Source of the DNA: Oceanicola sp. S124
GTDB lineage: Bacteria; Pseudomonadota; Alphaproteobacteria; Rhodobacterales; Rhodobacteraceae
NCBI RefSeq assembly: GCF_000220565.1
Contig: NZ_AFPM01000257.1
Span: 1 to 32,699 of the forward strand
Direction of reading: 5' to 3'
DNA: 32,699 nt
The notes below the pieces were generated by a model that saw only the letters and a program-made list of their open reading frames with translations, had not been told where the DNA came from and ran no database searches. The position numbers and the translations under genes are program-made. Shown here in pieces: positions 13,604 to 30,790 of the stretch; position 1 is the stretch's first letter, and each line of letters opens with the position of its first letter.

Positions 13604-15082
13604 TCAGGCGACGCCGGAAAGCAGCCTCACCAGGGTAAAGACCAGCGCCGAGATCAGCCCCGCGCAGGGCAATGTCACCAGCCAGGCACCGAGGATGGTC
13701 ATGAAGTGCGAGCGTCGCACCAGCCGGCGCCGGCGACGTTCCTGCACCGGGAAACGCCGGGCGGGATCTGGGTTGCGCGGCTGGGTGAACCATTCACGGA
13801 AGAAGCCGACGCCGAAGACGCCTCCGATGGCGATATGGGTCGAGCTGACGGGCAGGCCGAAGGCCGAGGCCAGGATCACCGTCATCGCCGCCGACAGGGC
13901 GATGCAGAAGGCGCGCACCGGGTTCAGGCGGGTGATCTCCTGGCCGACCATGCGGATCAACCGCGGCCCGAACATCATCAACCCGACCGAGATCCCGGCC
14001 GCGCCGATCAGCAGCACCCAGAACGGCAGGGAGACGAATTCCGACGCCACGCCGGAGCGTTGCCATTCCACCAGCGCCGCCAGCGGGCCGACGGCATTGG
14101 CCACGTCGTTGGCGCCGTGGGCGAAGGAGAGCAGCGCCGCCGAGATCACCAGTGGCAGCCGGAACAGCACCTTCATCGCGCCGCGCCGGTTCTCGAGCCC
14201 CTGCGCCTGGCGCGCCACCGCCGGGATCGACAGGCGCCAGCTGAGCAGGCCGAGGCCAAGCCCGACCAGCGCGATCAGGCCCGGCGCGAAACTGCGCCCG
14301 AGGTGAAGGGGCAGCTTCAGCATCAGGTAGGCCGAGAAGGCCCCGGCCATCAGGCCGATCAGCCGCGGCAACCAGCGCTGCGCCGCACCGATCTTGTCCT
14401 CTCGGTCGAGGATCCTCCAGGTGATCACCGCGAGCAGCGCCCCCGCCACCAGCGCCCCCAGCAGGGGCGAGAGCACCCAGCCAAGCGCCACCAGCCCGAG
14501 GGTCTGCCAGCTCAGCGCCGCAAGGCCACCGGCGGCGGCGGCGGCACCGATCATGCCGCCGATCACTGCCTGGGTGGTCGACACCGGCGCGCCGATCCAG
14601 GTCGCCACGTTGACCCAGAGCGCAGCGCCCAGCAGGGCGGCGATCATCGCCGGGGCGAAGGCGGGCGAGGCCGAGACCAAGTCGAAATCGAGAATGCCCC
14701 GGGACAGCGTTTCGACCACCTCGTGGCCGGCCAGCAGCGCCCCGGCGGATTCGCAGATCACCGCCAGGGTGATCGCCCCCGCCATCGGCAGCGCCCCCGA
14801 CCCCACGGCGGGCCCCATGTTGTTGGCCACGTCGTTGGCGCCGATGTTCAGTGCCATGTAGGCCGCCAGCGCCGAGGCGGCGACGATCACCATCGTGCCC
14901 GGCTCGCGCCCCGTGACCAGCAGCGTCACCAGCATCGACACCACGATGAAGGCCAGCGACACCCCCACCCCGAGCAGCGGCCGCGACAGGTGGATCGCCC
15001 CGGCCTCCAGCACCGAGACCCGTTCCAGATCGCGGTCGAGACTGCGCCATTCCCCGGTACCGCGCCGCCCGGGAGGCCTCAT
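13604..15082 (-). CDS. Inorganic phosphate transporter, Pit family
   Basis: A 492-residue inner-membrane protein with about ten to twelve hydrophobic helices. The two diagnostic PiT signatures are present, one in each half: GANDVANNMGPAVGSGAL (N-terminal) and HGANDVANAVGPLAAL (C-terminal). PiT proteins take up metal-phosphate or phosphate by proton or sodium symport. The N-terminal 50 residues include a cytoplasmic arm before the first helix. Its ATG overlaps the stop codon of the upstream NUDIX gene (ATGA at 15079-15082), which predicts translational coupling. No PhoU-like gene is adjacent, although Pit genes often have one. Confidence 0.93.
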   Translation of the reverse strand: MRPPGRRGTGEWRSLDRDLERVSVLEAGAIHLSRPLLGVGVSLAFIVVSMLVTLLVTGREPGTMVIVAASALAAYMALNIGANDVANNMGPAVGSGALPMAGAITLAVICESAGALLAGHEVVETLSRGILDFDLVSASPAFAPAMIAALLGAALWVNVATWIGAPVSTTQAVIGGMIGAAAAAGGLAALSWQTLGLVALGWVLSPLLGALVAGALLAVITWRILDREDKIGAAQRWLPRLIGLMAGAFSAYLMLKLPLHLGRSFAPGLIALVGLGLGLLSWRLSIPAVARQAQGLENRRGAMKVLFRLPLVISAALLSFAHGANDVANAVGPLAALVEWQRSGVASEFVSLPFWVLLIGAAGISVGLMMFGPRLIRMVGQEITRLNPVRAFCIALSAAMTVILASAFGLPVSSTHIAIGGVFGVGFFREWFTQPRNPDPARRFPVQERRRRRLVRRSHFMTILGAWLVTLPCAGLISALVFTLVRLLSGVA

Positions 15083-15543
15083 TCCGCCGCCTCGCGCCGG
15101 AACCGGGCCAGCAGAGCGGCCAGCTCGGGCTCTGCCACCGACGAGGCCGCCTCGGCGGGGGTCATCCAGTGGCGCTTGCGCTGCCCCTTCTCGGGGTAGT
15201 CGTCATGCAGCCCCGACACCGGGATGGCGAAGACCTCGACCCGGGTCGGCACCGGCAGGCCGCCGTCCAGGCGCTTGTGATAATGATAGCGACCGACCAG
15301 CTCGGGCCGGCCACAAGGCTTGATGCCGGCCTCTTCCCAGGCTTCCTCGAGCGCGGTGCCACCGGCGTCATGGCCACGCTTGGGCCAGCCCTTGGGCAGC
15401 ACCCAGCGTCCGGTATCGCGCGAGGTGATGAGCAGGATGCGCAACTTGCTGCCGTCGCCCCGGTGGCACAGCGCCGCCACCTGGTAACGGGCGGGCCGCG
15501 CCAGCACCGGCAGCAGGACTGAGTTCCAGAATTGCCTCAACAT
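15079..15543 (-). CDS. NUDIX hydrolase, DIPP-like, coupled to Pit
   Basis: A 154-residue NUDIX hydrolase. The core box spans residues 52-74 and contains GHDAGGTALEEAWEEAG; the metal ligands E70 and E71 are kept, while the usual first Glu and the Arg of the REUxEE core are His58 and Glu66. The layout WVLPKGWPKRG before the box resembles the diphosphoinositol/dinucleotide polyphosphate hydrolase branch. Members of that branch cleave ApnA, diphosphoinositol polyphosphates or similar. The gene's stop overlaps the start of the Pit gene by four bases, so the two are made together. This suggests a link between a pyrophosphate-type signal or store and phosphate uptake, which is inference. Confidence 0.88.
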   Translation of the reverse strand: MLRQFWNSVLLPVLARPARYQVAALCHRGDGSKLRILLITSRDTGRWVLPKGWPKRGHDAGGTALEEAWEEAGIKPCGRPELVGRYHYHKRLDGGLPVPTRVEVFAIPVSGLHDDYPEKGQRKRHWMTPAEAASSVAEPELAALLARFRREAAE

Positions 15544-17078: not shown

Positions 17079-17094
17079 TTGCACACGAGTGCAA
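17079..17094. promoter_or_regulatory. LacI-type operator ahead of the ABC operon
   Basis: TTGCACACGAGTGCAA is a 16-bp palindrome with one mismatched pair and a central CpG, the form typical of LacI/GalR-family operators. It ends 38 bases before the start codon of the operon whose sixth gene encodes a LacI-family regulator. Confidence 0.6.
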
Positions 17095-17132: not shown

Positions 17133-18488
17133 ATGACCATTCTCTCCCACACCATGCGCCTGACCCTTGCGGCCGCGCTTCTGGGCACGACCGCCGCTGC
17201 CGGTCTTGCCGAAGACTACACCATCACCGTCTGGTCCGGCGGCACCGGCGACAGTGCCAACTACCGCATCGACAACATCAAGCTGGCCGCCGAGCAGATG
17301 ATGCGCGAAGCCGAGATCCGCGGCGACGAGCTGAGCATCACCATCGAGGGCCAGAGCTGGTCCGGCTGGGACGAGTTCAAGCAGGCCGTCACCCTTGCCG
17401 CCGAGTCGGGCGATGCGCCGGACATCATCGTCTCGGGCCACGAGGACCTGGGCCCCTGGAGCCAGGCCGGCATCCTGCGCCCGGTCGAGGACTGGGTCTA
17501 TTTCGACCAGTGGCCGCTGAACGACATCTATCCGAACCTGATCGACGTCGCGACCTACAACGGCGTGGTCTGGGGCATCCCCCAGGACGCCGAGGCCCGC
17601 GTGATGTTCTGGAACAAGGACGCCTTCCGCGCCATCGGCTGGTCCGATGCCGATATCGACGCCCTGCCGCAGCGCGTCATCGACGGCGACTACACGCTCT
17701 ACAACATGCTGGATGACGTCTACGCCATGCAGGAAGTCGAAGCCGTCGCCCCCGGGCAGGGCTTCATGCCGCGTCCCTCGAACGGTCCCGACTACTGGCA
17801 GTTCTACCAGTCCTTCGGCGGTGAAATGACCGATGCCGAAACCGGCAAGCTGCTGCTGGACACCGAAGCCCTGACCGGCTTCTACCAGTTCTTCGCCGAT
17901 GCGGTCGCCAAGGGCGTCGTCTCGGAAAGCTACCTGGGCGGCAACTGGGATGACTGGCACCGCGCCGTCGCCGGGCTGACCTCGGGCGCCTGGCATGGCG
18001 GCTCGTGGCACTATGCCCAGTGGACCCGCAGCTTTGAGATGGAGAACTTCTTCGACAACGTGCAGTTCACCCTGATCCCCGCCGGTGACGAGAATGGCCG
18101 CGCCAACTCGATCACCCACCCGCTGGTCTACCTGATGGGCGCTGGCAATACCGAGGACGAGGCCCAGATCGCCGCCGACCTGATCTCCATCGCGTCCGAG
18201 CCGCGCCTGAACGCCATGCACGCCGTCAAGTCCGGCCACCTGGCGATCAGCGAGGCCGAGGTCTCGGTGCCGCTCTATGCCGAGGACCGCTGGCTGACCG
18301 AGGCCTCCGAAGGCTTCCTGCCCTACGTCAACGCGATCCCCAACGATGCCGACTTCGGCACCTACTGGACCGCGATGTACAAGGGTCTGGAGAACGCCTG
18401 GACCGGCACCATGTCCGTGGAAGACGCCGTCGAGACCGTCAAGGCCGACGTGACCTCGGCGCTTGGCGACAAGATCATCGTCAAATGA
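17133..18488 (+). CDS. ABC importer substrate-binding protein (CUT1-like)
   Basis: A 451-residue periplasmic solute-binding protein of the MalE/UgpB type. The signal peptide ends near residue 27 (AGLA-ED), and the mature chain opens with the usual YTITVWSGG strand. The sequence SGDAPDIIVSGHEDLGPW and the hinge region GVVWGIPQDAEARVMFWNKD are family landmarks. Aromatic residues are frequent through the middle, as in sugar- or polyol-binding members. Start ATG 17133 is chosen over ATG 17154 because it gives a slightly longer basic n-region; neither has a clear Shine-Dalgarno. It is the first gene of the operon, and its stop overlaps the next start (ATGA). With the downstream phosphodiesterase and phosphatase, a phosphodiester ligand is inferred. 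Confidence 0.9.
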   Translation: MTILSHTMRLTLAAALLGTTAAAGLAEDYTITVWSGGTGDSANYRIDNIKLAAEQMMREAEIRGDELSITIEGQSWSGWDEFKQAVTLAAESGDAPDIIVSGHEDLGPWSQAGILRPVEDWVYFDQWPLNDIYPNLIDVATYNGVVWGIPQDAEARVMFWNKDAFRAIGWSDADIDALPQRVIDGDYTLYNMLDDVYAMQEVEAVAPGQGFMPRPSNGPDYWQFYQSFGGEMTDAETGKLLLDTEALTGFYQFFADAVAKGVVSESYLGGNWDDWHRAVAGLTSGAWHGGSWHYAQWTRSFEMENFFDNVQFTLIPAGDENGRANSITHPLVYLMGAGNTEDEAQIAADLISIASEPRLNAMHAVKSGHLAISEAEVSVPLYAEDRWLTEASEGFLPYVNAIPNDADFGTYWTAMYKGLENAWTGTMSVEDAVETVKADVTSALGDKIIVK

Positions 18489-19909
18489 ACATGCGCGCCC
18501 TGACCGACGGGGCGCGTGAGGGGGCCGCGACTGCGGTCCCCTCCTCTCCCGTCCCGCCCGCCGTCACCCAGCCGCCGCGCCGCCGAGGAAAACCCCGGGG
18601 CAAGCCCCGCGTCAGCCTGCTGGGCCTTGCCATGCTGGCACCCTCGCTGCTTTTGCTCTGTGCCTTCTTCTTCGCCCCGGCGATCTTCACCGGGGTCTTC
18701 GCCTTCACCAACATGTCCACCTCGACCGGCATCGGGAAGGGCGACTGGATGGTCACCCCGACCCTGCTGCGCCAGCTGCGCGATGCGGGCCTCAGCGAGG
18801 CCGATGAACAGGCGATCTCTGCCGCGACCTATGTGGTCGACGCCGAACATATCGCCCGCGCCGAGGCCGGGGGCGTCGATGGCCGCTTCCTGTCCGATAT
18901 CGAAGGCCGCCTCGCGGGTCAGACCTACGACAATGCCCGTGACTTCGAGCGCGACCTGCGCGCCCTGCCCTCGAAGCCGCGCTCGGCCCGGGCCCTGAAG
19001 GGCGCCGCGGATCATTTCGCCAGCTCGGTGCTGAACCGCCGCTATGCGACCGAAGCCGCCTTCGCCGCCGCCCTGACCGGTGTCGCGCCCGGCCTTTCGC
19101 CCGAAACGCTCTCCCTCGTGACCGAACGCGCCTATACCGGCGCCGTCTTCACGGTCGAGAACTTCGTCACCCTCGCCACCCGCCGCGACACGCTGCGCAT
19201 CGTCGGCAATACCTTCCTCTATGTCGGGCTGACCCTCGGCTTCAACGTCGCCATCGGCCTGTTCCTGGCGCTGAGCACCTTCTACCTGCCCAAGCGCGTC
19301 GGCTCGGTCTTCTCGGCGCTCTGGCTGCTGCCGCGCATCACGCCGGTCGTGCTCTACGCGACGCTCTGGCAGTGGTTCACCTGGGAAAACGGCTTCATCT
19401 ACATCCTCGCCGACACCCTCGGCCTGCCGACCTACAACTACATGAAGGCCGGTGTCACCTCGGCCTGGACGATCATGATCCTGTCCAACGGCTTTGTCGG
19501 GGCCTCCTTCGGGATGATCCTCTTCTCGGGCGCCCTGCGCGCGATCCCGGTGCAGCAGCTCTGGGCCTCGGAGGTCGATGGCGCCTCGCGGCTGCAGCAG
19601 ATCCGCCGGATCATCCTGCCGCAGCTGCGCTGGCCCGTGCTCTTCGTCACCGCCTACCAGACGCTGTCGCTGCTGTCCTCCTACGAGCTGATCTGGCTGA
19701 CCACCGACGGCGGCCCCGGCACGACCACGACGGTCTGGGCACTGGACGCCTTCAAGACCGCCCTCTGGGCCTATTCGGGAGAGTTCAAGTACGGCCTCGG
19801 CGCGGCCATGGCGCTGATCCTGGTGGTGGTCGGGCTGACCCTGTCGATCGCCTACCTGATCCTGTTCAAGTTCGACGACCTAGTGGGCCGTCCCAAGATC
19901 GAGTTCTGA
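18485..19909 (+). CDS. ABC importer permease, MalF-like, with large extracytoplasmic insert
   Basis: A 474-residue inner-membrane permease. After a Pro/Arg-rich cytoplasmic N-terminus (about 1-45) comes membrane helix 1 (about 46-75), then a hydrophilic stretch of about 150 residues before the next helix. The remaining helices form the transport core, with the EAA loop containing EVDGASRLQQIRRIILPQL, which docks on the ATPase. The extra stretch recalls the periplasmic P2 loop of MalF, and ordinary CUT1 permeases of about 300 residues lack it. It pairs with the permease encoded at 19913. It overlaps the binding-protein stop codon by four bases, implying coupled translation. Confidence 0.9.
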   Translation: MNMRALTDGAREGAATAVPSSPVPPAVTQPPRRRGKPRGKPRVSLLGLAMLAPSLLLLCAFFFAPAIFTGVFAFTNMSTSTGIGKGDWMVTPTLLRQLRDAGLSEADEQAISAATYVVDAEHIARAEAGGVDGRFLSDIEGRLAGQTYDNARDFERDLRALPSKPRSARALKGAADHFASSVLNRRYATEAAFAAALTGVAPGLSPETLSLVTERAYTGAVFTVENFVTLATRRDTLRIVGNTFLYVGLTLGFNVAIGLFLALSTFYLPKRVGSVFSALWLLPRITPVVLYATLWQWFTWENGFIYILADTLGLPTYNYMKAGVTSAWTIMILSNGFVGASFGMILFSGALRAIPVQQLWASEVDGASRLQQIRRIILPQLRWPVLFVTAYQTLSLLSSYELIWLTTDGGPGTTTTVWALDAFKTALWAYSGEFKYGLGAAMALILVVVGLTLSIAYLILFKFDDLVGRPKIEF

Positions 19910-19912
19910 GCC

Positions 19913-20767
19913 ATGTCCGGATCCTCCCAACCCCAAACCTCCATGACCCGCAACTTCTCGATGATCCCGGTGCTGGCGGTGCTCGGCCTGGTCACCCTGC
20001 CGCTGGTCGTCATGTACGCCTTCCTGGTGGTCGACAGCTTCAGCAATGCCCCGGCGACCTCGCTGATCCCCTACGAGTTCACGCTGGAGCACTGGCGCTT
20101 CCTCTACGACTTCTCCCTTGTCGGGAACGTCTGGATTGCCACCAAGAACTCGCTGATCCTGGCCTTCACCATGGTCGTGACCACGCTGGTGCTGTCCTCG
20201 ACCGGCGGCTACGCCATGTCGCGGCTGAACCTGCCCTTCCGGCGCTTCTTCCTGGCCTCGGTGCTGGTGATGCACGCCTTCCCGGCGGTGACCCTGCTGA
20301 TCGGCACCTTCCTGGTGCTGAACTTCACCGGGCTCTACAACTCGATGATCGGGGTGATCCTGGTCAAGGGCACGCTGATGCTGCCCTTCGGCATCTGGAT
20401 CATGAAGGGCTTCTACGATGCCGTGCCGTGGGAAATCGAGATGGCCGGCGTGCAGGATGGCGCCTCGCGCTTCACCGTCTGGCGCCGGCTGGTGCTGCCG
20501 CAGGTGAAACCGGGCCTCGTCGCCCTCGGCGTCTTCGCCTTCCTCGATGGCTGGGGCGAATACCTGCTGCCCCGCATCCTTGCCCCCGGCGCCGATTTCC
20601 AGGTGCTCTCGGTCTTCCTCCAGGACGCCTCGATCCCCGATGCGGCGGACTACAATTTCAACATCTTCAAGTCGGTGGGCATCTTCTACACCCTGCCTGT
20701 GCTGATCCTTTTCGTGGTCTTCCAGAACCGGCTCATGAACATCTTCGGCGGAGGCACGAAAGGCTGA
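19913..20767 (+). CDS. ABC importer permease, MalG-like
   Basis: A 284-residue inner-membrane permease with six hydrophobic helices and the EAA loop EMAGVQDGASRFTVWRRLVL in the normal place. It is the second half of the translocation pore with the MalF-like permease. It starts three bases after that gene's stop and shares one base with the start of the ATPase gene (TGATG), so the importer genes are tightly coupled. The C-terminal NRLMNIFGGGTKG ending is typical of this branch. Confidence 0.92.
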   Translation: MSGSSQPQTSMTRNFSMIPVLAVLGLVTLPLVVMYAFLVVDSFSNAPATSLIPYEFTLEHWRFLYDFSLVGNVWIATKNSLILAFTMVVTTLVLSSTGGYAMSRLNLPFRRFFLASVLVMHAFPAVTLLIGTFLVLNFTGLYNSMIGVILVKGTLMLPFGIWIMKGFYDAVPWEIEMAGVQDGASRFTVWRRLVLPQVKPGLVALGVFAFLDGWGEYLLPRILAPGADFQVLSVFLQDASIPDAADYNFNIFKSVGIFYTLPVLILFVVFQNRLMNIFGGGTKG

Positions 20768-21822
20768 TGCAACTTACCCTCGACAAATTCACCAAGAGCT
20801 TCGGCGACACCGACGTGATCGCCGACATGGACCTGACCGTGCGCGACGGCGAGATGCTGGCCCTGCTCGGCCCCTCGGGCTGCGGCAAGTCGACGACGCT
20901 GTTCGCCATCGCGGGCATCCACCGGGTCTCGGGCGGGCGCATCCTGTTCGGCGACCGCGACGTCAGCGACCTGCCCAGCCAGAAGCGCAACGTCGGCGTG
21001 GTCTTCCAGAACTACGCCCTTTACCCGCACATGACCGTGGCCGAGAACATCGCCTTCCCGCTGGAAGTCGCCGGCCAGGACCGCGCCACGATCAAGCGCG
21101 AAGTGCGGGCCATCGCCGAGCTGGTCCATATCGAGAAGCTGCTGAACCGCAAGCCGGCAGAGCTGTCCGGCGGCCAGCAACAGCGCGTCGCCCTGGCCCG
21201 CGCCATCGTGCGCAGGCCCGCCGTGCTGCTGCTGGATGAACCTCTCGCCAACCTCGACGCCAAGCTGCGCCTTGAGATGCGTTCGGAAATCCGCCGCATC
21301 CAACAAGAGACCGGCATCACCGCCATCCTCGTCACCCATGACCAGGTCGAGGCCATGTCCATGTGCGACCGCGTCGCCATCATGAACGAGGGCGAGATCC
21401 TGCAGATCGACAGCCCGACCGAGATGTACCGCGCGCCGGTGTCGCGCTTCGTCGCGGGCTTCCTGGGCAACCCGCCCATCACCTTCCTCGAGGGCGTGAC
21501 CGACGGGCGTGGCGACGTGGATCTGGACGGGCTGAAGCTGCCCCTGCCCGCCCGGCTCGAGGCCCTGCCCGGCGGCCATGCCGTCACCCTGGGCATCCGC
21601 CCCGAGCATTTCGGCCAGTCCCGGGGCGTGCCGCTGCGTGGCAAGGTGCGTTTCATCGAACCCCAGGGCCGCGAAACCCTTTTCGACATCCTGCTGGAGA
21701 ACGGCGCCATGCTGCGCTCGATCCAGCCGGTGCGGCAGGACCTGTCGGTCGGCGATGCGGTGAGCTTCAACCTCGACACCGAGGCCATGCTGGTCTTTGC
21801 CGAGACCGGAGAGCGCCTGTGA
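20767..21822 (+). CDS. ABC importer ATPase, UgpC/MalK-like
   Basis: A 351-residue ATPase that powers the importer at the inner face of the membrane. Walker A GPSGCGKST (35-43), the Q-loop at Q81, the signature LSGGQ (133-137), Walker B LLLDEP (154-159) and the switch His in LVTHDQ are intact. A C-terminal OB-type regulatory domain fills about residues 240-351 (IRPEHF near its start), as in MalK and UgpC. Start ATG 20767 is fixed by the TGATG overlap with the previous gene and by family length. The open frame upstream of it is a shadow of the permease. Confidence 0.93.
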   Translation: MQLTLDKFTKSFGDTDVIADMDLTVRDGEMLALLGPSGCGKSTTLFAIAGIHRVSGGRILFGDRDVSDLPSQKRNVGVVFQNYALYPHMTVAENIAFPLEVAGQDRATIKREVRAIAELVHIEKLLNRKPAELSGGQQQRVALARAIVRRPAVLLLDEPLANLDAKLRLEMRSEIRRIQQETGITAILVTHDQVEAMSMCDRVAIMNEGEILQIDSPTEMYRAPVSRFVAGFLGNPPITFLEGVTDGRGDVDLDGLKLPLPARLEALPGGHAVTLGIRPEHFGQSRGVPLRGKVRFIEPQGRETLFDILLENGAMLRSIQPVRQDLSVGDAVSFNLDTEAMLVFAETGERL

Positions 21823-23315
21823 TCGACGCCATGATCCCGCGCCACCAGCCCCGCCTGCCCTTCCCGAAACCCGAAGGCCGCCCCGCCTGCATCGCCCACC
21901 GGGGCGCGCAGGCCCATGCGGTCGAAAACACCCTGCGCGCCTACGAGATCGCCGCCGACCTCGGCGCCGACATGTGGGAGATCGACCTGCGGCTGACCGC
22001 CGACGGCGTGCCGGTCTCCTGCCACGATGCCTCGACCGCGCATGTCTTCGGCCCCGACCTGCAGATCAGCGAAACCCCCTTCGCCGATCTGCGCGCCGCC
22101 GTGCCCGGGGTGCCGACGCTTGACGAGATTCTGACGCTGGCGAAAGCCCGCGGCTGCGGTCTTTATATCGAGCTGAAGGCCCCCGGTGCCGGCCCCGCGG
22201 CCCTGCCGCTCCTGCAGGGCTTCGGGGCCGCGGCGCTTGGGTCCTTCGACAGTGCCATGGTGCGGGAAACCATCGCGGCGGGCTGCAAGTGGCCGGTCTC
22301 GGTGCTGGTGCGGATCGGGGAAGACCCGCTGGAACGCGCGGCGGAAAGCGGCGCCGACACGGTGCATCTCTGCTGGGAGCGCGCCGGCGACCGCCCGCAG
22401 GATCTGGTGACGCCCGACCTGCTGGCGGCCCTCGGCGCGCGGGATCTCGGCCTCGTCCTCTGGCACGAGGAACGCCCTTCGGTGCTGGCAGACCTCGAAA
22501 AGCTCCCTGCCCTCGGCATCTGCACCGACCAGCCCGAGCTGATGCGCGGCCGCCGTCCCGGGGAATTCCCCGAGGTGCAGTTCGTCTGTCATCGCGGCAT
22601 GAACCACATCGCGCCCGAGAATACCGAAGCCGCCGCGCTGCTGGCCTATGACATGGGCTGCGACTGGCTGGAGCTGGACGTCCACGAGACCGCCGATGGC
22701 GAGATCGTCGTGCATCACGACTCGAGCGTCGACCGCTGCTCGGACGGCTCCGGCGCCATCGCCGGGATGACCCTGGCCGAGCTGAAGGCACTGGATATCG
22801 GCAGCTGGAAGGATGCCCATTTCGCCGGTCAGCGCATGCAGACCCTGCGCGAGGCGATCACCCTCTGCCAATCCCTCGGCAAGCGGATGTACATCGAGAA
22901 CAAGGCCGCCAGCGTCGAAAAGATCTGGGCGCTGGTCTGCGAGATGGGCTTCCAGCGCGACTGCTTCTTCTGGTGCGGGGACATGGGCTGGATGACGGCC
23001 CTGCGCGCCCTGGCCCCCGAGGCACTGATCAAGTCCAACATCTCGCGCCATGCCTCCGTCGAGCAGATGATCGACGAGGTCGCACCGCAGATCTGCGAGA
23101 TCATGCTTGACCGCTGGGATCGCGAGGCCCCGCTGTGCCGAAAGCGCGGGATCATCCCGATGCTGCAGTACTTTGGCGCCCCCGACAGGGCGGTCTTCGA
23201 CCGTATCGCCGCGCTGCGCCCCGAGATGATCAACCTTGACCGCGCCGACCTGCTTCTGGAAGCTCTGCGCAGGCAGGGACAGGCAGAGGGGCATCGCCCC
23301 TCGGAAGTGGCGTGA
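21819..23315 (+). CDS. Tandem-domain glycerophosphodiester phosphodiesterase
   Basis: A 498-residue protein made of two complete GDPD domains (about 22-245 and 252-485). Both carry the metal and acid-base residues. Domain 1 has HRG (27-29), E36-N-T, E54-I-D56, H69-D and IELK; domain 2 has HRG (258-260), E267-N-T, E285-L-D287, H300-D and IENK. GDPD enzymes hydrolyse glycerophosphodiesters to glycerol 3-phosphate and an alcohol, or cleave related sugar phosphodiesters. No signal peptide is seen, so it should act on imported substrate in the cytosol. GTG 21819 is chosen because GGAG lies seven bases upstream and the codon overlaps the ATPase stop (GTGA); ATG 21831 is the alternative. Single-domain members are about 240-260 residues, so this is a duplication/fusion. 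Confidence 0.92.
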   Translation: MIDAMIPRHQPRLPFPKPEGRPACIAHRGAQAHAVENTLRAYEIAADLGADMWEIDLRLTADGVPVSCHDASTAHVFGPDLQISETPFADLRAAVPGVPTLDEILTLAKARGCGLYIELKAPGAGPAALPLLQGFGAAALGSFDSAMVRETIAAGCKWPVSVLVRIGEDPLERAAESGADTVHLCWERAGDRPQDLVTPDLLAALGARDLGLVLWHEERPSVLADLEKLPALGICTDQPELMRGRRPGEFPEVQFVCHRGMNHIAPENTEAAALLAYDMGCDWLELDVHETADGEIVVHHDSSVDRCSDGSGAIAGMTLAELKALDIGSWKDAHFAGQRMQTLREAITLCQSLGKRMYIENKAASVEKIWALVCEMGFQRDCFFWCGDMGWMTALRALAPEALIKSNISRHASVEQMIDEVAPQICEIMLDRWDREAPLCRKRGIIPMLQYFGAPDRAVFDRIAALRPEMINLDRADLLLEALRRQGQAEGHRPSEVA

Positions 23316-23316
23316 G

Positions 23317-24333
23317 ATGAGCGCAGAGAAACCGCGCGGGGCGGTGACGGCCAGCGATGTGGCCCAGCTGGCCGGCGTGTCGCGCTCGGCCGTGTCGCGC
23401 ACCTTTACCGAGGGCGCCTCGGTTGCGCCCGACACGCGCGAGAAGGTCCTGCAGGCGGCCCGCGACCTGGGCTATCGGGTCAACTTCCTCGCCCGCAGCC
23501 TGAAGGAGCAGCGCACCCGGCTGATCGGCCTCGTCGTGTCGGACATGGACCACTCGCTGCGCGCCCGTCTGGTCGACAGCCTGGGCCGGGCTCTGGTGGC
23601 GGCGGACTACCGTCCCTTCCTGCTGCCCACCTCGCGCGGCGAGGACACCCGGCGCGCCATCGACATGATGCTGCACTACAACGTCTCGGGCGCCATCGTG
23701 ACCTCGGATGCCTCACCGCATCAGATCGCCGCCGAATGCGCCCGCCATGACGTGCCGCTGGTGCTGGTCAACAAGGCCGAGATGGGCGGGCGGGTCGCCA
23801 ATGTGACCCAGGACACCGGGGCCGCGGGCCGCCTCGCCGCCGAGGCCCTGGCCGAAGCCGGTTGCCGCCGCGTGGTCCTGGCCCGCCAGCGCCTGCCCTC
23901 CTACACCATCGACCTGCGCTGCGATGCCTTCGTCGCCCACCTGCCGCGCCTGGGCCTGGAGCTGGTCGACACCGTCTTCGGCGAGGCGCAGAACTATGCC
24001 GGCGGGCAGGAGGCCGGCGCCGCCTTCCTCGCCCGCCGCCCCGATGCCGATGGCGCCTATTGCGCCAACGACTTCCTGGCGCTCGGCTTCATGGACCACC
24101 TGCGCCGCCACGGCGTCTCGATCCCGCGCGACCTGGCCGTGGTGGGCTGCGACGACATCGCCGAGGCCGGCTGGGACGCCTACGACCTGACCACCATCCG
24201 CCAGCCGGTCGAGGCGCTGACCCAGGCCACCCTGCAGGCCCTGCTGACCTGCATCGCCGACCGCAACGCCCGACCGGGCCTCACCACCATCGGCGTCGAC
24301 CTCGTACGCCGCAACTCGACGGCAAGATCCTGA
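23317..24333 (+). CDS. LacI-family transcriptional regulator
   Basis: A 338-residue regulator. The LacI helix-turn-helix is at about 11-35 (TASDVAQLAGVSRSAVSRTF), followed by a hinge helix region (FLARSLKEQRTRLIGL). A periplasmic-binding-protein-like sensor domain ends with the family motif DLAVVGCDDIAEAGW. It starts one base after the phosphodiesterase stop, inside the operon, and probably senses the imported compound or a breakdown product. The 16-bp CpG-centred palindrome at 17079 is its likely operator. The open frame upstream of ATG 23317 overlaps the previous gene and is not LacI-like. Confidence 0.92.
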   Translation: MSAEKPRGAVTASDVAQLAGVSRSAVSRTFTEGASVAPDTREKVLQAARDLGYRVNFLARSLKEQRTRLIGLVVSDMDHSLRARLVDSLGRALVAADYRPFLLPTSRGEDTRRAIDMMLHYNVSGAIVTSDASPHQIAAECARHDVPLVLVNKAEMGGRVANVTQDTGAAGRLAAEALAEAGCRRVVLARQRLPSYTIDLRCDAFVAHLPRLGLELVDTVFGEAQNYAGGQEAGAAFLARRPDADGAYCANDFLALGFMDHLRRHGVSIPRDLAVVGCDDIAEAGWDAYDLTTIRQPVEALTQATLQALLTCIADRNARPGLTTIGVDLVRRNSTARS

Positions 24334-24337
24334 CCCA

Positions 24338-25138
24338 ATGACCGACCAAGACCAAGCCGCGCGCCTTGACTGCGCGCGCCTCGCCATCGCCCGTGCCGCC
24401 GACCTGGCGCTGGAGCATTTCCACGACCTCGGCGCCCTCTCCGTCGAGACCAAGACCGGCCCCGGCGATCCGGTCAGCCAGGCCGACCGCAGCGTCGAGG
24501 ACCTGCTGCGCCACGAGATCGCCTCGGCCTTCCCCGAGGACGCCATCCTCGGCGAAGAGCGTGGGCTGGAAGCCGGCACCTCGGGCTGGACCTGGGTCAT
24601 CGACCCCATCGACGGCACCATGCCCTTCCTGCACGGGCTGCCCAGCTGGACCGTGGTGCTGGCAGTGCTGCACGAGGGGCGCACCGTCGCCGGGCTGATC
24701 GCCGAACCCTGTCGGGATCGTCTCTATCGCGCCGAGGCGGGCCGGGGCGCCTGGCTCGAGACCGCCGACCAGGCGCCGCAACGCCTGCGGGCCTCGACCG
24801 CGACGGATCTGGCCGGTCAGGTCGTCGCCTGCGGCCCAGGTGCGCCGGTCCATGCCGCCCGCATCGGCACCGTCGTGGCGCGGCTGACCTCGGCCGAGGC
24901 CAGCTTCATGCGCAATGGCTCGGCGGCGCTGTCGCTGGCGCTGGTGGCGGCCGGGCACTATGCCGGCTTCCACGAACCCGAGCTCTCCGCCTGGGACTGC
25001 CTCGCCGGGCGCCTTCTGGTGACCGAGGCCGGCGGCCACGCCAGCCCCTTCGACCTCGCCGATCCGACCAGGCGACAGGTGGTGACCTGCACGGGCCCGG
25101 CGCTCTTCGGAGCGCTCGGCACCCTTGTCGAGGTCTGA
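24338..25138 (+). CDS. Inositol-monophosphatase-family phosphatase (operon member)
   Basis: A 266-residue Mg2+-dependent phosphomonoesterase of the IMPase superfamily. The metal ligands are present: GEE (72-74), D89-P-I-D92-G-T and the C-terminal WDCLAG. The usual Asn-Phe after DGT is replaced by Met-Pro-Phe, so the substrate pocket may differ from classical inositol or histidinol phosphatases. It starts four bases after the LacI stop and is the last operon gene. Its place behind a phosphodiesterase suggests it removes phosphate from the monoester that enzyme releases, as AccG does in agrocinopine breakdown. It is distinct from the SuhB encoded at 30002. Confidence 0.9.
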   Translation: MTDQDQAARLDCARLAIARAADLALEHFHDLGALSVETKTGPGDPVSQADRSVEDLLRHEIASAFPEDAILGEERGLEAGTSGWTWVIDPIDGTMPFLHGLPSWTVVLAVLHEGRTVAGLIAEPCRDRLYRAEAGRGAWLETADQAPQRLRASTATDLAGQVVACGPGAPVHAARIGTVVARLTSAEASFMRNGSAALSLALVAAGHYAGFHEPELSAWDCLAGRLLVTEAGGHASPFDLADPTRRQVVTCTGPALFGALGTLVEV

Positions 25139-25315: not shown

Positions 25316-26665
25316 ATGGGACTTTGGGGCGGACCCCGGGGGCAGACCCTGTCCGACAGCGACGCTGCTGTCCTGAAGATCGTCGAGGAAACCCAGGCGG
25401 TCATCCACTTCGAGCCCAGTGGCATCATCCTGGGCGCAAACCGCAATTTCCTTGCGGCGCTGGAATGCACTGCGGAAGAGATCGTCGGTCAACACCATTC
25501 GATCTTCGTCGAACCTGATTTCGTCGCCAGCGCGGAGTACCGCGCGCACTGGGACAGGCTTCGCGCCGGCGAAGCGCTCAGCGATCAGTATCCGCGCCTG
25601 ACCCGCAGCGGTCGGCGGATCTGGATCCAGGCCACCTATGCCCCGGTCAGCAACGCACGGGGCGAGGTCGTCCGTGTCACCAAGATCGCGACCGATGTGA
25701 CCCGCCGGCGCAATGCCATCGAACGCCTGGCCCAAGGGCTGGAAAGTCTGAGTCACGGCAACCTGACCGACCGCATCCCTCAGGCAGGCATCCCCGACCT
25801 GGATGCGCTCGCCAATGCCTTCAACCGCTCGATGGAAACCTTCAGCGCGACCCTCGCCGAGGTCCAGGGCTTCGCCTCTGACTTCGAGACCGTCAGCCAG
25901 CATATCGGCAAGACCACCGACGACCTCTCGCGGCGGACCGAAAGCCAGGCCGCCACGCTGGAGGAAACCGCTGCCGCCATCGAGGAACTCGATGCCAGCG
26001 CCCGCGTCTCGGCCAGCAACGTCCAACGGGTTTCGCAGGCCGCCAGCGAGACCCGCAGTGCGGCCGAGACCAGTGGCGCCCTGGTGCAGGAGGTGACCGC
26101 CGCGATGGAGCAGATCGAAAGCTCTTCCAAGGCAATCGCCGACATCCTCTCGGTGATCAACGATATCGCCTTCCAGACCAACCTTCTGGCCCTGAACGCA
26201 GGGGTCGAGGCAGCTCGCGCCGGCGAGGCAGGCTATGGTTTCGCCGTGGTCGCCTCCGAGGTGCGGTCGCTGGCAAGCCGCACCGCGGATTCCGCCCGCG
26301 AAATCAGGGTTCTGATCGACGAAAGCTCAAATTACGTCACCAATGGTTCGACCCTCGTCGCCCGGACCAGCACGGAACTGAAGGGCATCTTCACTCGTGT
26401 CGACGCGGTAAACGACCTGGTAAAAGAGGTGGCCCAGACAATCGAACAGCAGTCCACGACGATCGGAGAGATCAACAGCGCCGTGACCAATCTGGATCAG
26501 GTCACACAGCGCAATGCCGCCATGGCCATCGAGACCGCCGACGCCACGCGCAGCCTGTCCCAGAAAAGCGCCGCCCTGGGAGACAGAACAGCGACCTTCC
26601 GCATCGCCAAGGGGGGCGGCGACTGGTCCGGCGGCGCACAGGAGGACTCTCGTCGCGCATCATGA
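25316..26665 (+). CDS. Soluble PAS-containing methyl-accepting chemotaxis protein
   Basis: A 449-residue chemoreceptor with no membrane helix, so it is cytoplasmic. One PAS domain (about 20-132) ends in the usual [13 protein letters not shown]-like linker follows (about 138-185), then the signalling hairpin with the conserved tip [20 protein letters not shown]. The C-terminus ends in SRRAS and lacks a xWxxF pentapeptide. GGAGG lies seven bases before the ATG. The PAS domain may hold a redox or small-molecule cofactor as in Aer-type receptors, but no binding residues are decisive. No other che gene is in the window. Confidence 0.92.
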
Positions 26666-27092: not shown

Positions 27093-28688
27093 TCAAAGGC
27101 GCTTTTCCTGAAAGAACCGGACCCCCGCCTCGATCGCATCACGCCATGCGGGTTCGCGATCCATCAGGATATGATTGCGGCTTTCCAGCGGAACGAAATG
27201 CGCATCGGGAATGCCCGCCGCCAGTTCACGCCCGGTCTCCAGCGGAATACGCTGGTCATGACGGGAATGCAGTACCAACGTCGGCACCCGGACCTCGCGC
27301 AGCCGGTGGCGCACGTCGATGCGCCCGAAGGCTTCCTGAAAGCGGGCCGCATTCGACGGAGAGGTGGTCTGGCGCTGGAAATCGTCGAACCAGGCCAGAT
27401 CCGCCGCGCTGGCTTCGGGCATGAAAGTCTGCGAAAAGATATGCCGATAGGCCGGGTTGTCGGTGCCCCAGCCCAGCTCGGTCAGGGTCAGCACCGCCTC
27501 GCGCCGGGCCTGCTCTTCAGCGCTGGCCAGGTGCCGCCACCCGGCCGCGTAGCCGCCCAGCAGCACCAGCCCGGTCACCCTTTCGGGGTGACGCACGGCA
27601 TATTCGATACAGACTGCCGCCCCCTGCGAGATGCCGATCAGCGGAAACTTCTCCAGCCCCAGCTTGTCTGCCACCGCTTCGAGATCCTCGACGAAAGCGT
27701 CAAAGCTGAGATCGCCGCAGCCCCAATCCGACAGGCCGCAACCGCGTTCGTCGTAGCGGATGAAGGTCCGGTTGCGGGCGATCGCGGCGAAGCTGCGCCC
27801 CCAGATCGGACTGGCCCAGTCGAACTCGAGGTGATTCAGCCAGTTCGCCGCCTTCAGGATGGGCCGCCCCTCGCCGATGGTTGCATAGGCGATCTTGGTG
27901 CCGTCGGCCACGTCGCAAAAGCCGATGCGTTGCGCGCGCAGGGCCCGGGCACGGGCGCGATCCAGCCTTGCAAGCTCCCGCCCCCTGCCAAGATGTCCCT
28001 CTACCGACGCCGGGCGGAGGCGGCCTCCTGCTGCCGGCACCGGCTCCCGCGCCGGCTCATCCGCGGGCAGCACCTCGCGCAACGACTGCGCCGCCGCGCT
28101 TCGCTGCCATTCTGCCGACGCTTCGGGATCAAGGTCGTGCCAAAGCCGCAGCCATTTCTCTCGGGCCAGGCGCGGGGTGGCCGGGGCCGAGACCAGTCGT
28201 CTCAGCACGGCCGAGCGGGCGGCCAGAACGTCCTCGCGCTCGGCCCGCAGCCAGGCATCGAAGCTTTCGTCACCAGCCCCGTCCAGACCATCCAGGAATA
28301 GCTGACCAAGCGCCCGGGCCAGCGGTTCAAGCACATCGGGCCGGTCCTCGGCTTCGGGCCCGGCCAGCACCGCATGGATCTGCGCCAGGTCGATACGGCA
28401 ATCGAGAGGTCGGAACTCCACCCGCTCGCGATCCGCAAGAATGCGCGGAGCCTCGTCGCCATCAACCACCCGACGCAGCTTGCTGAGGGCCCAGCGCAGC
28501 GCCGCCTTCGGGTCATCGGGCAGATCCCATAACAGCTCGCACAAGCGCTCGCGGCGATGCGGACGCCCCGTGGCAATCAGGAATGCCAGCAATGCACGCG
28601 CCTTTCGCGAGGCCGGCAACGCCAGATCGCGATCCCCGGCGCGAATGCGCAATTCTCCCAGCAAGGTAATCTCGATTATCTCTGACAT
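27093..28688 (-). CDS. Winged-helix/BTAD-like regulator fused to alpha/beta hydrolase
   Basis: A 531-residue fusion. Residues 1-95 resemble the winged-helix DNA-binding domain of SARP/OmpR-type activators (ITLLGELRIRAGDRDL, RKARALLAFL, then LLWDLPDDPKAALRWALSKLR). Residues 100-230 are helical and BTAD-like. Residues 255-531 are a complete alpha/beta hydrolase: nucleophile S354 in GISQGA, acid D478 in RHDQRIP and base H506 in SRNHIL, with the oxyanion-region GCGLSDWG. No signal peptide is present. It could be a transcription factor whose ligand sensor is a hydrolase fold, or an enzyme that reports turnover to DNA. No adjacent target operon is obvious. The Shine-Dalgarno is weak, so the exact start is moderately sure. 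Confidence 0.88.
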   Translation of the reverse strand: MSEIIEITLLGELRIRAGDRDLALPASRKARALLAFLIATGRPHRRERLCELLWDLPDDPKAALRWALSKLRRVVDGDEAPRILADRERVEFRPLDCRIDLAQIHAVLAGPEAEDRPDVLEPLARALGQLFLDGLDGAGDESFDAWLRAEREDVLAARSAVLRRLVSAPATPRLAREKWLRLWHDLDPEASAEWQRSAAAQSLREVLPADEPAREPVPAAGGRLRPASVEGHLGRGRELARLDRARARALRAQRIGFCDVADGTKIAYATIGEGRPILKAANWLNHLEFDWASPIWGRSFAAIARNRTFIRYDERGCGLSDWGCGDLSFDAFVEDLEAVADKLGLEKFPLIGISQGAAVCIEYAVRHPERVTGLVLLGGYAAGWRHLASAEEQARREAVLTLTELGWGTDNPAYRHIFSQTFMPEASAADLAWFDDFQRQTTSPSNAARFQEAFGRIDVRHRLREVRVPTLVLHSRHDQRIPLETGRELAAGIPDAHFVPLESRNHILMDREPAWRDAIEAGVRFFQEKRL

Positions 28689-30001: not shown

Positions 30002-30790
30002 TTACTGGTCGCGGATGATCTTCGAGAACTTGTCGAACAGGGGTTCGTTGGCGCAGAGCACCGCGCCGTCCGCCAGGATGTCGCCCTCGGGGTTGACCGG
30101 CTCGATGAAGCCACCGGCCTCGCGCACGATGACCAGGCCCGCGGCCAGGTCCCAGGGCTTCAGGCCGCGTTCCCAGAAACCGTCGTAGCGGCCAGCGGCC
30201 ACATAGGCCAGGTCGAGAGAGGCAGCACCCCAGCGACGCACCCCGGCACAGGCCGGCATCAGCCGGGCCAGGTCCTTCAGGGTTGCCGGCAGGTGGCGCG
30301 AGGTGGCGAAGGGCACGCCGGTGGCGAAGACCGCCTCGATCATCCGCATCCGGCCCGAGCAGCGGATCCGCATGTCGTTCATCCAGGCGCCCTCGCCCTT
30401 CTCGGCCATGAACATCTCGTCCTTGGCGGCGTCGTAGATGACCCCGGCGACGATCTGGCCCTTGTGCTCCAGCGCGATCGAGATCGCCCAGTGCGGCATG
30501 CCGTGCAGGAAGTTGGTGGTGCCGTCCAGCGGGTCGACGATCCAGCGCCGGGTCGGATCCTCGCCCTCTTCCTCGCCACCCTCTTCGGCCAGCCAGCCGT
30601 AGTTGGGGCGCGCGCCCATCAGCTCTTCCTTCAGGATCTTCTCGGCCGCGATATCGGCGCGGCTGACGAAGTCACCTGCCCCCTTGACCGAGATCTGCAG
30701 GTTCTCGACCTCGCGGAAATCCTTCACGAGGGACCGGCCCGCCTTGCGGGCGGCTTTCATCATGATGTTGAGATTGGCGCTGAAGGACAT
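30002..30790 (-). CDS. suhB: Inositol-1-monophosphatase SuhB
   Basis: A 262-residue Mg2+-dependent phosphatase with the complete IMPase signature: E69/E70 (WLAEEGG), D86-P-L-D89-G-T-T-N-F, and C-terminal WDLAAG. It hydrolyses myo-inositol 1-phosphate, and in enterobacteria the protein also helps antitermination of ribosomal RNA synthesis. It matches the classical SuhB branch better than the operon phosphatase at 24338. The ATG at 30790 (MSFSANLNIMMKAARKAG) is the family start; the 28 codons upstream are not SuhB-like. It converges with the rhomboid gene. Confidence 0.93.
   Translation of the reverse strand: MSFSANLNIMMKAARKAGRSLVKDFREVENLQISVKGAGDFVSRADIAAEKILKEELMGARPNYGWLAEEGGEEEGEDPTRRWIVDPLDGTTNFLHGMPHWAISIALEHKGQIVAGVIYDAAKDEMFMAEKGEGAWMNDMRIRCSGRMRMIEAVFATGVPFATSRHLPATLKDLARLMPACAGVRRWGAASLDLAYVAAGRYDGFWERGLKPWDLAAGLVIVREAGGFIEPVNPEGDILADGAVLCANEPLFDKFSKIIRDQ

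Follow-up and report, generated by a model that had tools for sequence, protein, structure and literature searches.

Two described systems resemble the locus reported here. In the acc system the agrocinopine diester is imported and then cleaved by AccF, and AccR reads the product (PMC4526662). CUT1 proteins that hold a phosphate, among them UgpB of the ugp system, share two tyrosines and two serines, located at positions 64, 143, 266 and 342 of Phaeobacter UgpB (PMC12718374). We analyzed a 32,699-nucleotide contig of Oceanicola sp. S124 (NZ_AFPM01000257.1; the whole stretch is called the window), which carries a seven-gene operon at 17133-25138 encoding a CUT1-type importer, a double GDPD, a LacI-family regulator and an IMPase-superfamily phosphatase. 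The operon probably serves the import of a phosphodiester of some kind, and we tentatively propose that it is a scavenging system for an inositol-containing phosphodiester, with glycerophosphoinositol as the leading candidate. A search of open-access full texts returned no paper that we recognized as describing the operon; in the main text of PMC4052901 the terms diester, phosphodiesterase, monophosphatase and glycerol were not found, and inositol occurred once.

Gene order and the company kept by the importer

The seven genes are co-directional on the forward strand, and each is open from start to stop with no internal stop. The first gene encodes the CUT1 periplasmic binding protein (SBP, 17133..18488), followed by the genes for the MalF-type permease F of 474 aa (18485..19909), the MalG-type permease G (19913..20767), the UgpC/MalK-type ATPase with OB/TOBE domains (20767..21822), the double GDPD, which starts with GTG (21819..23315), the LacI-family regulator (23317..24333) and the phosphatase (24338..25138). 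Within the double GDPD we distinguish the first phosphodiesterase domain, GDPDn (21819..22553), which belongs to a divergent GDPD family, and the second, GDPDc (22554..23315). The junctions measure -4, 3, -1, -4, 1 and 4 bases from 5' to 3', confirming the tightly packed seven-gene operon of the preliminary description. Pfam domains of all seven proteins score above the curated cut-offs, including SBP_bac_8 and SBP_bac_1 for the SBP and GDPD with 162.9 bits over two stretches; with an SBP_bac fold, two BPD permeases and a MalK-type ATPase the importer is of the CUT1 type. Comparison with NCBIfam, which covered the permeases as well, showed that none of the seven proteins reaches a cut-off (for the ATPase among the best 25 of 188 matches), and thus database rules name no substrate.

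The seven genes occur in identical order in 23 of 29 related loci (L034-L062), showing that the grouping is not due to chance and agreeing with the gene set that the preliminary description had put together. The 29 loci comprise four plasmid records from 512 matched, all 16 loci of one search and nine stretches selected from the top of the family search. Those that conserve the order include loci from Marinovum, Antarctobacter, Rhizobium, Martelella, Devosia, Pelagibacterium, Oricola, Pleomorphomonas and a metagenome-assembled genome of Geminicoccaceae; L055 contains an additional gene of the endonuclease/exonuclease/phosphatase (EEP) family between the LacI and IMPase genes. Among the other six, L051 is cut by a contig end, L053 is unrelated, L060 and L061 hold other GDPD genes, and L059 and L062 have the importer and a single GDPD without LacI or IMPase. 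The operon is scattered among Alphaproteobacteria and uncommon: GDPDn matches at E<=1e-20 were found in 3/385 genomes of the class and a full-length double GDPD in 6/198 genomes of the family; both counts include the genome of the window. On plasmids, 196 records match GDPDn (131 of them over at least 80% of its length), and 137 of these 196 are from Rhizobium.

To follow the importer, a profile of the SBP clade was used (A5, 11 rows, E<=1e-60), which matched in 6/385 genomes of the class, 5/349 of the phylum and 11/198 of the family, altogether 20 distinct genomes. The importer has a GDPD gene as neighbor in 16 of the 20 and an EEP-family gene without GDPD in two (G263, G064); no phosphoesterase was detected near it in the last two (G014 and G518, the latter with 3.1 kb of contig downstream). 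In the nine genomes that had not first been met via GDPD, the corresponding numbers are five with GDPD, two with EEP only and two with none detected, and three of the five (G622, G812, G824) belong to a single family and are close to the Rhizobium loci. Four more distant SBP matches (L115-L118) came from six loci opened among 60 rows listed of 141 records, and in all four a GDPD gene adjoins the importer, while in the window's genome GDPD domains occur at just two sites. The enzymes themselves vary, the companions being fused GDPDn and GDPDc, two tandem GDPDs (L116), GDPD with EEP (L062, L149), GDPD with a metallophosphoesterase (L059, L117), GDPDn with two EEPs (L085), or GDPDn and GDPDc with EEP and IMPase (L055). 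Because the importer keeps phosphoesterase company while the type of enzyme changes, this pattern is the best evidence for a predicted phosphoester cargo, and it adds to the logic of import and cleavage set out in the preliminary description. Eight of the 20 genomes have an IMPase gene next to the importer (the G622 locus is cut by a contig end). In the HB8 GDPD stretch (L088) no importer is annotated beside that GDPD.

Inositol genes were found next to the importer in two distant lineages. In Thermus thermophilus SG0.5JP17-16 (L115) the genes iolD-iolE-iolC-aldolase-iolG-iolB-DeoR-SBP-F-G-ATPase-GDPD are encoded on one strand with junctions of -29 to +23, the importer clade and the GDPD being the last five genes of this iol run. 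IolD, IolC and IolG score over the NCBIfam cut-offs, IolB reaches 197 against a cut-off of 205 and IolE 160.6 against 290. An ABC permease and an ATPase are encoded upstream in the same run, and the cargo of the CUT1 importer may therefore differ from free inositol. A plasmid search with the Thermus SBP returned 142 records from nearly the same genera as the search with the window SBP (141 records). In Rhizobium halophytocola (L045) the double-GDPD operon is followed directly after the IMPase gene by convergent iolB, iolE, iolD and iolC, all four above their cut-offs. At genome level, IolE scores over the cut-off in 14/17 operon genomes versus 70/198 genomes of the family. Within the family it was found in 5/6 operon carriers versus 65/192 others (one-sided Fisher p = 0.022) and in 8/11 importer-clade genomes versus 62/187 (p = 0.011), both values being uncorrected for kinship and genome size.

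The encoded proteins and the operator

In a tree of 49 GDPD rows, which left out L042, the GDPDn rows form one clade (support 100/100, stem 1.09) and the GDPDc rows a separate one (96/94), whose sister group is formed by the L059 and L062 GDPDs (98/96). Since the two domains fall into separate clades, the double GDPD unites two GDPDs that are only distantly related; a recent internal duplication was rejected, the two halves belonging to separate families. Both domains are present in 18/23 proteins and GDPDn alone in five (L036, L037, L048, L049, L050), and the nesting of L048 among the double-GDPD proteins suggests a loss of GDPDc there. With GDPDn kept in 23/23 and GDPDc missing in 5/23, GDPDn is the predicted core and GDPDc appears dispensable. 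Residues H27, R28, E54, D56, H69 and K120 of GDPDn are invariant in 23/23 rows, and the HR, E-x-D and H residues of the GDPD superfamily are found in both domains. The AlphaFold model of the protein (predicted local distance difference test, pLDDT, 90.4) matches solved GDPDs, best of all 1zcc (template modelling score ~0.93 of the target, 35% identity), which aligns with GDPDc. A signal peptide was not seen by eye on the GDPD protein. A convergent second GDPD gene lies beside the single-GDPD Rhizobium operon (L037 10576-11448, L036 10615-11484 and L114 16196-17053, all on the reverse strand); its product belongs to the same group as the GDPD of the Thermus iol run, with 28-29% identity.

The phosphatase is placed in the IMPase superfamily by its Pfam score and by metal-site motifs: E73-E74, D89-P90, D92-G93-T94 and W219-D220 are invariant in 24/24 rows. 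In a tree of 44 rows the operon IMPases form, together with AccG and three other genome copies placed within or next to them, a group that is separated with modest support (86/83); op_L056, which looked like another subfamily, and the near-duplicates L040 and L042 were left out. One HisN and one CysQ encoded in the window's genome fall outside the operon group; each exceeds its cut-off. Among the A3 members, at 1e-20, the histidinol-phosphatase (HisN) model is matched by 24/24 and the inositol-1-monophosphatase model by 23/24. A second IMPase-family gene in the window (30041-30769, reverse strand) is nearest the inositol-1-monophosphatase model (221.7 bits, cut-off 332); it is located outside the operon group, in a cluster to which three other genomes contribute a single copy each. 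In L084 (G247) the operon has no adjacent IMPase gene, and the two nearest relatives of the window IMPase in that genome lie elsewhere.

The N-terminus of the SBP is signal-like as judged by eye. Its AlphaFold model (pLDDT 87.9) was compared with solved structures using Foldseek, which returned CUT1 sugar-binding proteins with 14-20% identity among the 50 best, so that this comparison names no ligand. A dinucleotide-binding protein of Thermus ranked high and was set aside as a substrate clue, its identity being 15-16% among many sugar binders. The clade retains R45, R156, R214, H103 and H363 in 23/23 core rows and in 11/11 rows of a wider set that includes Thermus, and H329 and H369 are mostly kept; the near-duplicates L040 and L042 were left out of the residue counts and of the binding-protein tree, in which bootstrap values are unsettled. 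This set of arginines and histidines could form a phosphodiester site of a different kind, or a sugar site. The annotated members listed among the 141 matching plasmid records are described only as solute-binding or sugar ABC transporter proteins.

A LacI-type operator, TTGCACACGAGTGCAA, is predicted at 17079..17094. Its 16 bp form a palindrome around a central CG and end 38 bp before the first ATG. The exact pattern TTGCACNCGNGTGCAA was detected 5' of the binding-protein gene in 14/24 upstream regions, and weaker palindromes in the remaining 10 (L034-L037, L049, L050, L055-L058), in a comparison made without a shuffle control. In 12 operon genomes, selected for the exact pattern at their own locus, 10 have a single copy and two have a second one, and the reversed pattern used as control occurs in none of the 12; with two mismatches allowed, one match was found in the window where 0.10 were expected. 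These two second copies were the only additional sites in the 12 genomes, and a wider regulon was therefore rejected. One of them (G205, L086 4944-4959) is found 5' of a different CUT1 operon that includes a LacI gene of its own, the other (G206) near other open reading frames. With one or two sites per genome, the LacI protein looks like a local regulator. The promoter scan recognized no sigma-70-type site, three terminator-like sites were found versus 2.5 expected, and a Pho box search of the window gave no match with up to three mismatches allowed.

The window also encodes, on the opposite strand and some 2 kb before the start of the operon, a PiT-family phosphate transporter beside a NUDIX gene (13604-15543). 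A PAS/HAMP-containing methyl-accepting chemotaxis protein (25316-26665, forward strand) starts 177 bp past the IMPase stop codon. It is followed on the reverse strand by a protein (27093-28688) with an alpha/beta-hydrolase C-terminal half and an N-terminal region without Pfam match that resembles a transcriptional-regulator type.

Candidate substrates

For an inositol-containing diester we infer the following route. The CUT1 importer would bring the intact diester into the cytoplasm, where the GDPD protein would hydrolyze it to an alcohol and a phosphomonoester. The IMPase-family enzyme would then strip the phosphate, for example converting inositol 1-phosphate to inositol, which would enter the Iol pathway, while the glycerol part and the phosphate would pass into central metabolism. 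LacI would repress the operon and little else, and a pathway metabolite would release it. Some GDPD-family enzymes free inositol 1-phosphate from glycerophosphoinositol, and such a cleavage would give the IMPase its substrate. Glycerophosphoinositol had been named first among several candidates in the preliminary description; the iol linkage in Thermus and R. halophytocola now adds to its case, and it keeps its place as a tentative assignment. A more detailed version, which we consider rather unlikely as a whole, would have the SBP read the diester of an inositol-phosphodiester system via R45, R156, R214, H103 and H363 and, mostly, H329 and H369, a site arisen independently of the UgpB, glycerophosphocholine- and dinucleotide-binding group, and the fused GDPDs might cut two different ester bonds.

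Several results weigh against inositol as part of the cargo, or against phosphate recognition of the described kind. The iol genes adjoin the operon or importer in only 2/38 sequences (L115 and L045), a set in which L051, L053, L060 and L061 have no full importer and a weak IolG-like match in L035 was set aside; in 10 further importer stretches none was found, save a short, weak IolC-like match in L141. No operator was seen at iol genes in the 12 operon genomes. The IolE association ignores kinship and genome size, and the operon occurs without IolE over the cut-off in G018, G198 (the closest relative) and G199. The association with GDPD is inflated, since 11/20 genomes were first met through GDPD and six of these are among the A5 rows. 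The window phosphatase reaches 163.7 with the HisN model, whose cut-off is 275.15, and only 129.1 with the inositol-1-monophosphatase model (cut-off 332); since this speaks against inositol specificity, our confidence in an inositol diester was lowered slightly. At the UgpB phosphate positions the window SBP has W79, E154, G290 and H369 versus Tyr, Ser, Ser and Tyr, in a low-identity alignment that may be off by one residue at the last two. W79, E154 and G290 are present in 23/23 core rows and position 369 is His in 21 and Lys in two; the Tyr-Ser-Ser-Tyr set is intact in UgpB of R. johnstonii and in the L079 binding protein.

The same sequence of import, cleavage and dephosphorylation could act on a sugar phosphodiester or a glycerophospho-sugar, such as an agrocinopine-like compound or glycerophosphorylated glucan fragments, and we regard this as possible, if somewhat doubtful. 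It would fit the alignment of the SBP with MalE-type sugar binders, in which the invariant Glu154 lies over a MalE glutamate that we take to be a sugar ligand, as well as the maltose, trehalose and sulfoquinovosyl-glycerol binders among the Foldseek neighbors. It would also fit the failure of the phosphatase to reach any specific IMPase-type model and the 3/17 operon genomes without IolE over the cut-off. The iol linkage in Thermus and R. halophytocola, however, speaks against it, and the annotated loci showed no sugar-catabolic gene conserved next to the operon, though no systematic search was made.

A general scavenger of glycerophosphodiesters or glycerol phosphate of the UgpB-UgpQ kind, taking up glycerophosphocholine, glycerophosphoethanolamine or glycerol phosphate, is quite improbable. 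The ATPase is nearest the UgpC model, GDPDc is nearest ordinary GDPD structures and the PiT transporter gene is 2 kb away, but all four UgpB phosphate positions differ (the first three throughout the core rows), the window has no Pho-box-like site at up to three mismatches, and glycerol 3-phosphate as product would need no IMPase. Uptake of a plain sugar or a polyol (such as inositol or one of its glycosides), with GDPD and IMPase acting on unrelated diesters, is very unlikely: the MalE-like residues of the SBP and the two of 20 clade genomes with no phosphoesterase detected nearby would suit this, but a GDPD or EEP gene, the former from different GDPD groups, adjoins the importer in 18/20 genomes (11 of the 20 first met via GDPD), and the Thermus iol run holds another ABC permease and ATPase.

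If the inositol-diester proposal is correct, the operon could let soil, rhizosphere and marine bacteria draw on deacylated phosphatidylinositol and related headgroups as sources of both phosphorus and carbon. It would also supply a substrate lead for an SBP clade present in 141 plasmid records.

Comparison with the Thermus, ugp and acc systems

The Thermus iol run (L115) shares the SBP clade with the window (31.6% identity over 94%), its permeases are 44-50% and its ATPase 46% identical to those of the window, and it ends with a GDPD gene. It differs in that its annotated stretch contains neither a LacI nor an IMPase gene and in that its GDPD is of another group, to which the GDPD encoded beside the Rhizobium operon also belongs.

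The ugp operon of R. johnstonii 3841 (ugpBAEC-ugpQ, L080) likewise encodes a CUT1 importer followed by a GDPD. The window SBP, however, belongs to another clade and is without the UgpB phosphate residues, and the window has LacI and IMPase alongside, whereas ugp has DeoR and a HAD hydrolase. The window ATPase scores 370.4 bits on the NCBIfam UgpC model, below the cut-off of 432 bits. Membership in ugp was rejected on the differing phosphate residues and the UgpC score.

The acc cluster of the opine plasmid pAoF64/95 (L078) combines an importer, one GDPD, one IMPase-family phosphatase and a repressor in a single cluster. Its importer is of the peptide type (oligopeptide, Opp, AccA), in contrast to the CUT1 importer of the window, and its regulator, a repressor that reads a pyranose 2-phosphate, is DeoR-type, in contrast to LacI. 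AccF falls outside the GDPDn and GDPDc clades, with pairwise identities of 32% and 35% over ~150 aa, and AccG joins part of the operon IMPases (94/82) on a long end branch of 2.45. Among 13 GDPDs, AccF (L078 7956-8756) is nearest the GDPD of the Terrarubrum importer operon (L116 14300-15103), with 36% identity over 264 aa; acc may have drawn AccF from the GDPD pool of these importer operons. Transporter type, regulator family and GDPD group all differ, and membership in acc was rejected, in support of the independent assembly that the preliminary description had proposed. Judged by its gene content, the operon is a system predicted to work like acc, but not a member of it.

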